Shown here piece by piece: positions 47,331 through 52,017 of a DNA stretch of 64,000 bases. Position 1 is the stretch's first letter. Every line of letters starts with the position of its first letter. Origin of the DNA: a virus; IMG/VR virus record IMGVR_UViG_3300021961_000085, positions 1 through 64,000 of that record; one strand, written 5' to 3'. Both the position numbers and the translations under genes were made by a program. The notes beneath the pieces were generated by a model, which saw only the letters and a list, made by a program, of their open reading frames with translations, did no database searches and had not been told where the DNA came from.

Positions 47331-47351
47331 TATATTATCGTTAAGTGTTCG
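47331..47351 (-). promoter_or_regulatory. Promoter motif P2 (CGA-N8-CGATAATATA)
   Basis: Minus strand: CGAACAC, TTAA, CGATAATATA. It overlaps the last codons of the upstream gene and lies 4 bp before the next ATG. Preceded by an A-rich tract (ACAAACAAAAAA), as at P1. Confidence 0.65.
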
Positions 47352-49050: not shown

Positions 49051-49242
49051 TTATTTTTTATCGGTTAATTTAATTCTTCTTGTCCTTGGAAATCCTTTTG
49101 CCTTTCCCGTTGGAGTAGCAAACGTTGGTTCTAACGTATAGTAAACATTCCAACCATAAAAATTTACATAAAAAACCTTCGTCTTATTTCCTTTTTTTCT
49201 GATGTAATTTTGTGCCTCTTTAAGTGAATATTCTTTTACCAT
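49051..49242 (-). CDS. Small basic protein, 63 aa
   Basis: Basic, with NFYGWNVYYTLEPTFATPTG and RTRRIKLTDKK at the end. One-base overlap with the previous gene's stop. Unknown. Confidence 0.6.
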   Translation of the reverse strand: MVKEYSLKEAQNYIRKKGNKTKVFYVNFYGWNVYYTLEPTFATPTGKAKGFPRTRRIKLTDKK

Positions 49243-49691
49243 TATATGTTTTTATATCTTTTTTCTAATCTTACTTGCAATAATTCACTGTGTTGACGTA
49301 TCATTGTGTCTCTAGTCCACTTACTAATTGTCATTTTTGGCTTTTGTACGTGGTTTTTAAGTATAAACTTAGCTAAAAACTCTTCACGCTGTTCTTGCAA
49401 TTTGATGAGAACACGCTGGTAAGCTTTGTTTATTACTACTTTCTTTTGCAAATGACTCCACTCTGCTGTTTCAACAAGTCTCACTGGATTTATTTGATAG
49501 ATCTGGCGAGGAGATATTTTCCTCACATAGCCTGTCGCATAAGTTGCAAACATCATTGGTCTTGTCTTACCGCTTGCTAGCACATCACGCTCTGGTAGAG
49601 CAAATACTTTAGTGCCGTTAGCTTTTTGCCTTGCTGTAGTTACTTCTTTCACTCCAAGCAAATCAAGTATTTCTAATGGTTTTAAATTCAT
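49242..49691 (-). CDS. Basic protein behind tRNA-like element A
   Basis: 149 aa from the ATG at 49691. A longer frame to 49742 would read through the 3' half of the tRNA-like element and is rejected. N-terminal MNLKPLEILDLLGVKEVTTA looks like a short HTH, followed by YRKISPRQ-type beta sequence, a helical basic C-terminal half and a K-rich end. Possible DNA/RNA-binding protein. Its start codon is 2 nt after the element's acceptor-like 3' end. Confidence 0.7.
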   Translation of the reverse strand: MNLKPLEILDLLGVKEVTTARQKANGTKVFALPERDVLASGKTRPMMFATYATGYVRKISPRQIYQINPVRLVETAEWSHLQKKVVINKAYQRVLIKLQEQREEFLAKFILKNHVQKPKMTISKWTRDTMIRQHSELLQVRLEKRYKNI

Positions 49692-49693
49692 AG

Positions 49694-49778
49694 TGGACGT
49701 GGCAGGAATCGAACCTGCGTCTGAGATACTGTCTTGCCGCAATTGGCGAAGATACTGTCTCGCTCACCTTTCACGCCC
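49694..49778 (-). ncRNA. tRNA-like element A (85 nt, intercistronic)
   Basis: Minus strand: 5' GGGCGTG pairs over 7 bp with 3' CACGTCC (one G-T), followed by discriminator-like A and then CT-ATG. Next to it is a canonical T-arm, GCAGG-TTCGATT-CCTGC. The middle (54 nt) does not fold into a normal D-arm and anticodon arm. AGACAGTATCT occurs twice there as a direct repeat, and a 7-nt anticodon loop with a stable 5-bp stem is not found. The element fills the gap between two genes with 7 nt on its 5' side and 2 nt on its 3' side. Not confidently a functional tRNA. Confidence 0.65.
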
Positions 49779-49785
49779 ATATTAG

Positions 49786-50004
49786 TTATAATGGATATAT
49801 ATCTTCCCACCCATCTACGGCATTATTATTATAATACCTAGCCTTTTTAGGTTCTACATACTCATCAGGCCAAATTGAATATTGCTCATTTGGAAACATC
49901 TCCTCTAAACTACTTAACAACTCATTAGCTTCCTCTAGTGAAAGTTGAGTTGTATGTTCTTCAGGATAATTTGTTTCATTCATTATCTTATATAATTCTT
50001 TCAT
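49786..50004 (-). CDS. Acidic small protein between tRNA-like elements
   Basis: 72 aa from the ATG at 50004, 2 nt after element B. The longer frame to 50043 again runs through the element. Acidic, with LSLEEANELLSSLEEMF and the end DGWEDIYPL. The stop is 7 nt before element A. Function unknown. Confidence 0.7.
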   Translation of the reverse strand: MKELYKIMNETNYPEEHTTQLSLEEANELLSSLEEMFPNEQYSIWPDEYVEPKKARYYNNNAVDGWEDIYPL

Positions 50005-50006
50005 AG

Positions 50007-50109
50007 TGGACGTGGCAGGAGTCGAACCTGCGTTACAACACACTCGTACGTTTTTCGGTCGAATTACAGCATCACACTCATGCCTGTGTTGTCTGAACCT
50101 TTCACGCCC
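50007..50109 (-). ncRNA. tRNA-like element B (103 nt, intercistronic)
   Basis: Same acceptor (GGGCGTG/CACGTCC-A), same following AAAGGT, and near-identical T-arm (GCAGG-TTCGACT-CCTGC) as element A. The interior is different: an 8-bp stem ACAACACA/TGTGTTGT encloses a CAGGCAT/ATGCTG hairpin with a 7-nt loop. Acceptor plus T-arm plus a long interior helix in place of D and anticodon arms recalls tmRNA architecture, but no tag frame was recognised. Gap to flanking genes is 7 nt and 2 nt, as in element A. Confidence 0.65.
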
Positions 50110-50629: not shown

Positions 50630-50776
50630 TTATCCATTTGCCGCATGTTGTTTATTCACTGATACGTCAGATCTTCTACCACCGACTGAAGTTAATTTCT
50701 TTTTGTACGCTAAGAAAAGATCATTCTCTTTCAAGATCTCGTCTAATTTCTTTGGATTTCTCTTGTTATTTTTCAT
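50630..50776 (-). CDS. Small basic protein, 48 aa
   Basis: 48 aa, K/N/R-rich (MKNNKRNPKKLDEILKEND, then LTSVGGRRSDVSVN). Its ATG overlaps the stop of the gene upstream (ATGA), supporting translation. The 82-nt stretch between its stop and the next gene contains only 7-10 codon frames. Confidence 0.6.
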   Translation of the reverse strand: MKNNKRNPKKLDEILKENDLFLAYKKKLTSVGGRRSDVSVNKQHAANG

Positions 50777-51042
50777 CGCTTTGGATTATTAAAACTGTTC
50801 CACTTATTGATTAACTCTTGATTCCAACCACCTAGCTTGGCAACTTTGTCTTTGATGATCGCTAATTCACGCTCACCCTTTAACCATACTCTGTGATCGT
50901 CACTCATTTCGTACCACCCGTCATGCTTTTCGAACATTTCTTCGATCGAAAGATCTTCAAAACGATCTTCATACTCGTAAAAGTAAACACTCGCTGCTGG
51001 GCACTGTGGCACACGTCTTCTGTATTTTTTCATGTAACTCAT
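50773..51042 (-). CDS. Hypothetical protein behind tRNA-like element C
   Basis: 89 aa from ATG at 51042, 2 nt after element C. A GTG start at 51069 would translate the element's T-arm and is rejected. Basic N-terminus YMKKYRRRVPQ, then acidic SIEEMFEKHDGWYEM and a helical end. Unknown function. Confidence 0.7.
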   Translation of the reverse strand: MSYMKKYRRRVPQCPAASVYFYEYEDRFEDLSIEEMFEKHDGWYEMSDDHRVWLKGERELAIIKDKVAKLGGWNQELINKWNSFNNPKR

Positions 51043-51044
51043 AG

Positions 51045-51091
51045 AACCTTGAGTGAGGATCGCACTCACACACGCAAACTATTGCAAGGTT
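51045..51091 (-). ncRNA. tRNA-like minihelix C (47 nt, 5' leader)
   Basis: Minus strand: AACCTTG pairs perfectly with CAAGGTT (7 bp). Between them lie a 15-nt linker and a T-arm-like hairpin GTGAG-TGCGATC-CTCAC with one unpaired base before the closing strand. Then CT-ATG. No D or anticodon arm. Its 5' base is 6 nt downstream of promoter motif P4, so the leader RNA would consist almost only of this structure. Confidence 0.6.
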
Positions 51092-51097
51092 GTTATA

Positions 51098-51118
51098 TAT
51101 ATTATCGAGCACTGTTCG
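51098..51118 (-). promoter_or_regulatory. Promoter motif P4 (CGA-N8-CGATAATATA)
   Basis: Minus strand: CGAACAG, TGCT, CGATAATATA. Lies between the 34-aa membrane gene and element C. Six bases separate it from the 5' base of element C. Confidence 0.65.
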
Positions 51119-51129
51119 TGCTTCATTTG

Positions 51130-51234
51130 CTAGCTTCCACCAAACACATAGTATATGAAGTTAACAAAGAATAGGATCGCTATTATTGCAATAACTGTTC
51201 CGATTGCATCGATTATTTCTTCTTTTTTGTTCAT
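51130..51234 (-). CDS. Single-span membrane micropeptide (34 aa)
   Basis: 34 aa: charged N-terminus MNKKEEIIDA, then one hydrophobic helix (IGTVIAIIAILFFVNFIYY) and a short end. ATG overlaps the stop of the upstream gene (ATGA). Likely inner-membrane, early expressed, function unknown. Confidence 0.6.
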   Translation of the reverse strand: MNKKEEIIDAIGTVIAIIAILFFVNFIYYVFGGS

Positions 51235-51413
51235 ATTCCGCCTCCTAACGCTATGTCTAACTTGTACACCAACTTAGGCGCTACATTTAATGCTACTATG
51301 ATAGCGAAACCGATCGCACCTACAAGTGCTGTTACTGCCGCGCCTGCTAGTGCTTTTACTGTTACACTTGATATTGTAACAATTGCTTTGTGTTGAAATT
51401 TTACTTTGTTCAT
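51231..51413 (-). CDS. Small membrane protein behind tRNA-like element D
   Basis: 60 aa from ATG at 51413, 2 nt after element D. Basic N-terminus (MNKVKFQHKAIV) and a long hydrophobic A/V/I/G stretch (residues ~15-46, VKALAGAAVTALVGAIGF) forming one or two transmembrane helices. Together with the 34-aa gene it forms a two-gene membrane-peptide unit under P5. Confidence 0.65.
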   Translation of the reverse strand: MNKVKFQHKAIVTISSVTVKALAGAAVTALVGAIGFAIIVALNVAPKLVYKLDIALGGGI

Positions 51414-51415
51414 AG

Positions 51416-51457
51416 AAGTCACCGTAAGAATCGAACTTACACTAACCATTGTGACTT
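51416..51457 (-). ncRNA. tRNA-like minihelix D (42 nt, 5' leader)
   Basis: Minus strand: AAGTCAC pairs perfectly with GTGACTT (7 bp). Inside are a 10-nt linker AATGGTTAGT (D-loop-like GGTTAG) and a canonical T-arm GTAAG-TTCGATT-CTTAC plus one base. Then CT-ATG. Same layout as element C with unrelated stem sequences, so base-pairing is conserved while sequence is not. The 5' base is 6 nt after promoter motif P5, as in C. Confidence 0.65.
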
Positions 51458-51463
51458 GGTATA

Positions 51464-51484
51464 TATACTATCCAGACACCATCG
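51464..51484 (-). promoter_or_regulatory. Promoter motif P5 (CGA-N8-GGATAGTATA)
   Basis: Minus strand: CGATGGT, GTCT, GGATAGTATA. Distance of 6 nt to element D equals the P4-element C distance. Confidence 0.6.
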
Positions 51485-51996: not shown

Positions 51997-52017
51997 TATA
52001 CTATCGAAAGGATCTCG
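51997..52017 (-). promoter_or_regulatory. Promoter motif P7 (CGA-N8-CGATAGTATA)
   Basis: Minus strand: CGAGATC, CTTT, CGATAGTATA, 7 bp before the 36-aa gene. It is the outermost copy, next to the divergent control region, and would transcribe the whole early unit if no terminator stops it. Confidence 0.6.

Follow-up and report, generated by a model that had tools for sequence, protein, structure and literature searches.

The 64,000-nucleotide stretch of DNA analyzed here (the window), taken from an IMG/VR virus record that spans 65,415 bases, contains four tRNA-like elements that appear to belong to a family of phage RNAs resembling tRNAs without an anticodon arm. The family plan consists of an acceptor stem, a D-loop-like TGGTTAG, an optional internal hairpin, a T-arm and an encoded tail N73-C-T-A. 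The source is a marine bacterial virus, and dozens of its relatives likewise have such RNAs ahead of early genes. Matched mutations in relatives point to an undescribed family of tRNA mimics, and sequence comparison supports the elements as structured RNAs kept by compensatory change. We tentatively favor the explanation that these mimics, trimmed at their 3' ends by host enzymes, cut early transcripts beside start codons in the manner of tRNA punctuation.

Four tRNA-like elements in the window

The terminase encoded in the window is 64% identical to that of the uncultured phage MW202828 and 46% identical to those of Flavobacterium elemo phages; closer relatives are found on many IMG/VR contigs. 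A minus-strand block before position 52,000 carries replication genes (ribonucleotide reductase, thymidylate synthase, primase/helicase, ERF and DNA ligase), with small unknown genes at its promoter-proximal end. The genes that follow the elements are presumably early, judging by their position in this layout and by a promoter-like motif. The features are as follows.

51464..51473, minus strand: promoter-like motif GGATAGTATA, 6 nt before element D, a spacing kept in the related locus L170
51416-51457 (51413..51457 with tail), minus strand: element D, minimal tRNA-like minihelix with acceptor -1 to 6, T-arm and tail C-T-A
51231..51413, minus strand: gene after D, 60-aa hydrophobic protein
51098..51107, minus strand: promoter-like motif CGATAATATA, 6 nt before element C
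51045-51091 (51042..51091 with tail), minus strand: element C, minimal tRNA-like minihelix, AACCTTG/CAAGGTT, tail C-T-A(TG)
50773..51042, minus strand: gene after C, 89-aa protein with no assigned function
50008-50109 (50004..50109 with tail), minus strand: element B, GGGCGTG...CACGTCC-A-CTA(TG), with internal hairpin ACAACAC...GTGTTGT
49786..50004, minus strand: gene after B, 72-aa protein with no assigned function
49695-49778 (49691..49778 with tail), minus strand: element A, GGGCGTG...CACGTCC-A-CTA(TG)
49242..49691, minus strand: gene after A, 149-aa protein with no assigned function

The first-pass annotation had described C and D as a pair. Both were correctly located, but the window holds four elements, the longer A and B included. 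The anatomy proposed for C and D was borne out: each has seven Watson-Crick acceptor pairs, a linker of 10-15 nt and a 5-bp/7-nt T-arm, begins 6 nt past GATA(A/G)TATA and stops 2 nt short of ATG (CT-ATG). Read 5' to 3' on the minus strand (51457-51416), D consists of AAGTCAC, the 10-nt D-loop-like linker aatggttagt, the T-arm GTAAG ttcgatt CTTAC, a single g, GTGACTT and CT-ATG, the final A of its C-T-A being the A of ATG. C (51091-51045) reads AACCTTG, caatagtttgcgtgt, GTGAG tgcgatc CTCAC, t, CAAGGTT and CT-ATG; its T-loop, TGCGATC, is less canonical, and its plan is common to AACTCTT/AAGAGTT elements in loci L170, L251, L252 and L232. In tRNA numbering, both acceptors run from -1:73 to 6:67, with a mismatch at 7:66 and the canonical 8 nt from T-stem to tail.

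The acceptor stem, the T-arm and the residues of the D-loop/T-loop elbow of a canonical tRNA are present in the elements; a cloverleaf with an anticodon arm is not, and in C and D just the short linker lies between acceptor and T-arm. ARAGORN found no tRNA within the window, and at the gathering score Rfam found nothing in the window and nothing or only true tRNAs elsewhere. Folding energies proved uninformative as support for the minihelices, since RNAfold favors other folds: the intended folds have -8.0 (D) and -8.9 (C) kcal/mol against minima of -10.8 and -11.6, and the z-scores relative to shuffled sequences were only -1.8 and -1.1. The support for these minihelices comes from comparison instead. 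A terminator or attenuator was rejected as an identity for the elements, there being no U-run and an ATG immediately downstream.

The motif (G/C)GATA(A/G)TATA stands before several genes. If the last T of TARTAT is taken as -7, transcription would start within about one base of the 5' ends of D and C, and for some other genes the same reckoning puts +1 close to the ATG, so that their mRNAs would be leaderless. Another promoter-like motif, AAATACGA-N10-12-GGATAATATA, precedes early genes in loci L088-L099 and at window positions 47340, 51848 and 52006; it often lies about 14 nt from the ATG, again suggestive of leaderless mRNAs.

Related elements in other phages

A descriptor for a minihelix with a T-loop core just before an ATG matched four places in the window and nothing else among 80 terminase-region loci (956 kb scanned in all), as opposed to two in the reversed-sequence control. 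The four window elements exceed chance. A looser descriptor (acceptor, GG in a D-loop-like linker, T-arm) found 202 unique elements in 2.65 Mb versus 2 in reversed sequence; since it also picks up some canonical tRNAs, 202 is an upper count. Protein searches of IMG/VR with the products of the C and D genes returned no relatives. The zinc-ribbon protein encoded just upstream of B did have relatives there, which defined 80 homologous regions. The looser descriptor had 52 unique matches in these regions versus 0 in reversed sequence, with the tails CTA (30), CAA (13) and CCA (2). The 5' motif GGG(C/T)GTGAAATGGTTAG alone located 35 places at which the partner strand, the T-arm and a discriminator A follow.

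D has family members in related marine Bacteroidota phages. With a covariance model of this family, D-type elements were found in many of the 80 loci, and all 48 matches, weak ones included, lie on the gene strand, the loci having been oriented by an early gene. D itself scores 67 bits against this model (R1), having been among its training rows. The ortholog in L170 has the T-stem GTAGG/CCTAC instead of GTAAG/CTTAC and is followed by CC-ATG; the same locus has AACTCTT/AAGAGTT and TAGCGAG/CTCGCTA elements before CT-ATG, plus a B-type element. The genes downstream of the elements vary from phage to phage, and a good part of the D-family elements stand before a small protein similar to the 60-aa product of the D gene.

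The descriptor found no minimal elements in the cultured relatives covered, namely Cellulophaga phages phi38:1 and phi13:2 (the latter in part), Flavobacterium elemo phages, Tenacibaculum phage Gundel (in part) and MW202828, in which true tRNAs or tRNA-like genes are present. Two of these records contain unannotated tRNA-like genes. The one in phi38:1 (NC_021796; L338:20679-20817) is 139 nt long, has a large insert, adjoins an RtcB-type tRNA ligase gene and may be an intron-bearing tRNA; the other, in the annotated record of MW202828 (L083:523-629), has a long variable arm. Among bacterial genomes the 5' motif had seven matches, and the element occurred only on two contigs of one Aliivibrio MAG (L331 and L332), which are probably misbinned phage contigs.

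Compensatory changes in the acceptor stem

Members of the D family were gathered by linker and T-loop only, without use of acceptor pairing. Across 21 unique members, 125 of the 126 possible pairings at acceptor positions 1-6 are formed; with shuffled partners the share averaged 67% and never exceeded 84%. Since MAFFT shifted the 5' arms when minimal elements of different kinds were mixed, covariation was counted on the D family alone. In 16 aligned members of equal spacing, 99.4% of cells were paired, and both sides had changed in 8 of 11 pairs. The covariation score over acceptor and T-stem was 0.701, compared with 0.231 ± 0.034 for shuffles, which ignore sequence relatedness, and at most 0.095 for slid controls, which retain it. 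The GG of the D-loop and the TTCGA of the T-loop, both elbow features, are conserved. Matched acceptor changes also occur in a second family, with the fixed linker CTACGGTACTAARGY, of six members only.

The suggestion that pairing is kept while the stem sequence differs, drawn originally from C and D, therefore extends to homologous phages, where compensatory changes maintain the stems. Homologs without such changes had been named as one of the observations that would speak against the first-pass reading.

Long elements and their likeness to tmRNA

A and B start with GGGCGTGAAAGGT and finish with GCAGGTTCGAYTCCTGCCACGTCC-A-CT-ATG, sharing a 3' end and having a long middle. Each begins 7 nt past the stop codon of the preceding gene and ends directly before CT-ATG, so that a tRNA-shaped element fills the gap at a gene border. 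Given this position inside an operon, they are not transcript 5' ends. RNAfold forms the acceptor, P2 and T-arm of B.

At permissive thresholds, the Rfam tmRNA model (RF00023) detected A (E=3.7e-11) and B (E=2e-6), both below the gathering score. Their 5' GGGCGTGA and 3' GACGCAGGTTCGAYTCCTGCCACGTCCAC can each be aligned with one end of tmRNA, and they have A73 and the alanine mark G3.U70. Unlike tmRNA, they lack almost the entire middle: 53-71 nt rather than about 300 separate the domain halves, there is no mRNA-like domain, tag or pseudoknot, and CTA takes the place of CCA. C and D contain no tmRNA-like sequence, and neither they nor their families have G3.U70 or the arm.

Of 92 long members, 89 have G.U at pair 3:70, whereas 4:69 varies among CG, AT, GC and TA; the script that selected them demanded all seven acceptor pairs, and one earlier collection pattern fixed U70. 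The helix that closes the interior varies freely in sequence and averages 5.47 bp, versus 2.89 bp in shuffles (maximum, 3.55 bp; 62 unique ends). An element in L332 links the minimal and long forms, combining a D-type acceptor and T-arm with an internal hairpin of the long-member kind.

Several further structures were noticed. Modules such as GGTGCCGACTATCGACGGATATAAGCGAGCG and the hairpin CTCGAYCGAAAAACRTACGAG recur in or beside the long elements (L131, L169, L180, L184, L085 and window positions 50040-50070), seemingly shuffled between elements. Noncoding stretches of about 270-430 nt with a tRNA-like element at the end (L092:17747-18150 and L085:1500-1773, both minus strand) are possibly larger structured RNAs. 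Shortened tmRNA tRNA-like domains without the message part, with a GGTTTCGAC or GGTTCGAC motif and a short hairpin, are found in other phages, at L130:2403 and in L200, L227 and L244.

The CTA tail and the distance to the start codon

The first collection pattern contained CTA and was biased toward this tail. With the 5' motif alone, the next three bases were CTA in 33 of 35 members. These phages also have true tRNA genes, mostly a lone tRNA-Met (CAT) but also Arg and Gln, and C-T-A likewise follows the discriminator in most of them. CTA is therefore how tRNA genes of this phage group normally end, and it does not belong to the start-codon signal. The lone tRNA-Met (CAT) is initiator-like (e.g., TGCGGGATAGAGCAG..) and stands beside tRNA-like elements at L087:1249-1322 and in L132, L140, L154, L234, L262, L271, L278 and L284; a phage-encoded initiator-like tRNA adjoining putative leaderless genes is unusual.

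In the clade of the window, the A of CTA is the A of ATG. Most relatives have, after C-T-A, an A/T-rich leader of 12-28 nt, or else a promoter-like motif, another noncoding RNA or a tRNA gene. The description of the minihelix as the entire 5' leader consequently fails as a general design. The tail A coincides with the A of ATG in 19 of the 202 elements, and the CT-ATG fusion is a recurring special case rather than a defining feature. Within the D family an ATG lies no more than 30 nt downstream of every member, at a spacing from the element of 0 to 28 nt. One and the same AGTTATG/CATAACT element is followed by CTAACAATT in L254 and by CTATG in L256. These variable surroundings make ribosome recruitment through a fixed geometry unlikely.

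Possible roles of the elements

A stem that ends 2 nt before an AUG would stand in the way of the normal initiation complex. The explanation that we tentatively prefer is that host tRNA-maturation enzymes would take the elements for pre-tRNAs. Behind position 73, RNase Z would cleave or exonucleases would trim. The operon-internal A and B would be cleaved at their 5' side by RNase P, for which C and D, apparently beginning at a promoter, would have no need. The early transcript would then be punctuated as by mitochondrial tRNAs, releasing a tRNA-like RNA and mRNAs that either start at CU-AUG, with almost no leader, or carry a short A/U-rich one. As the uncut stem should block initiation, cleavage may double as an activation step. 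RNase P, RNase Z and the CCA enzyme read the tRNA elbow, and RNase Z clamps that of CCA-less precursors (PMC4810234). Model substrates consisting of acceptor, T-stem and T-loop are cut by RNase P, and the T4 tRNA-Pro-tRNA-Ser precursor has UAA where CCA would stand (PMC11143913). Trimming of the elements by a tRNA 3' enzyme is plausible, and we infer that the 3' trimming is probably done by host tRNA-maturation enzymes. We favor punctuation because all members share the acceptor, the elbow and a CCA-like but non-CCA tail, the features that end-processing enzymes read. Against it, the 7:66 mismatch and the 73:-1 pair of D and C could hinder exact cleavage, and several relatives have a promoter-like motif after the element, where punctuation would be pointless. 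The true tRNA genes of these phages lie equally close to genes, so position alone is no proof of a role for the downstream mRNA.

The main rival, possible although rather doubtful, makes the free tRNA-like RNA itself the product, serving in trans as a decoy or a competitor that engages AlaRS, EF-Tu, the SmpB/tmRNA pathway or tRNA-cleaving defenses, its nearness to genes reflecting compact genomes. We retain it because the long members keep the alanine mark and elements also occur away from genes, before promoters, tRNA genes and other noncoding RNAs. In the long members G3.U70 and A73 persist while 4:69 changes, and the helix of freely varying sequence closes their middle. Phage tRNAs are known to evade tRNA-targeting and retron defenses (PMC10264068, PMC11555353), in keeping with such a role. 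However, no single binding partner fits all elements, as C, D and their families lack G3.U70 and the arm, and the constant presence of a nearby ATG in the D family also argues against it. The original proposal, an uncut minihelix that remains part of the mRNA and regulates how it is translated or how stable it is, is improbable. The layout of promoter, minihelix and CY-ATG is kept between the window and L170, and the fusions of tail and ATG agree with it; but the tail is independent of ATG and A and B are operon-internal. A ribosome-recruiting leader in particular is less likely because the spacing to ATG is not kept and the stem would obstruct initiation.

That the elements are functionless, decaying tRNA or tmRNA genes is very unlikely. 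True tRNA genes do occur in the same clusters, and A and B resemble tmRNA ends, but many compensatory changes keep the stems of the minimal forms, and covariation already disfavors this reading. The 3' ends of tRNA or tmRNA genes are often carried by phages at attachment sites, and C and D adjoin promoter-like motifs. A DNA-level feature, whether an attachment site derived from the 3' end of a tRNA or hairpins that serve a phage polymerase as promoter elements, is nevertheless hardly credible, as both acceptor strands and the D-loop motif are kept, every model match falls on the same strand and each genome has four copies that differ from one another. The retained G3.U70 wobble argues for an RNA rather than a DNA function.

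Comparison with known systems

In mitochondrial tRNA punctuation, too, tRNA-shaped elements occupy intergenic gaps and abut start codons; the phage elements differ in having no anticodon arm and in belonging to a phage, not an organelle, and their cleavage is putative. The CCA-less precursors of T4 likewise encode a non-CCA triplet at 74-76 (UAA in T4, CTA here) but are true tRNAs. The RNase P model substrate AT1 (acceptor plus T-stem-loop) has nearly the anatomy of C and D; it is artificial, and in C and D there is also a D-loop-like linker, with one additional nucleotide separating the stems. The tRNA-like structures of plant viruses are also viral tRNA mimics, but they lie at genome 3' ends, whereas the phage elements precede coding sequences in a DNA phage. 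We found no description of such elements in literature on phage tRNA-like elements, minihelices, truncated tRNAs and tRNA punctuation, whose incomplete coverage makes this weak evidence of absence. It is a speculative idea, and on balance unlikely, that all parts hold together in one undescribed class of phage RNAs: mimics of acceptor and elbow with an optional exchangeable hairpin, excised by host tRNA enzymes to leave leaderless or nearly leaderless mRNAs and, once released, acting on the translation machinery.

If the mimics are processed, the phage would make mRNA 5' ends with tRNA-maturation enzymes, an arrangement so far known from organelles, and would do so in Bacteroidota, hosts in which Shine-Dalgarno sequences are little used. 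Action in trans would make them naturally occurring minimal mimics of tRNA, with a conserved scaffold of their own and a site open to insertions. In both cases they form an RNA family that tRNA finders and Rfam miss and that is present in many uncultured marine phages.
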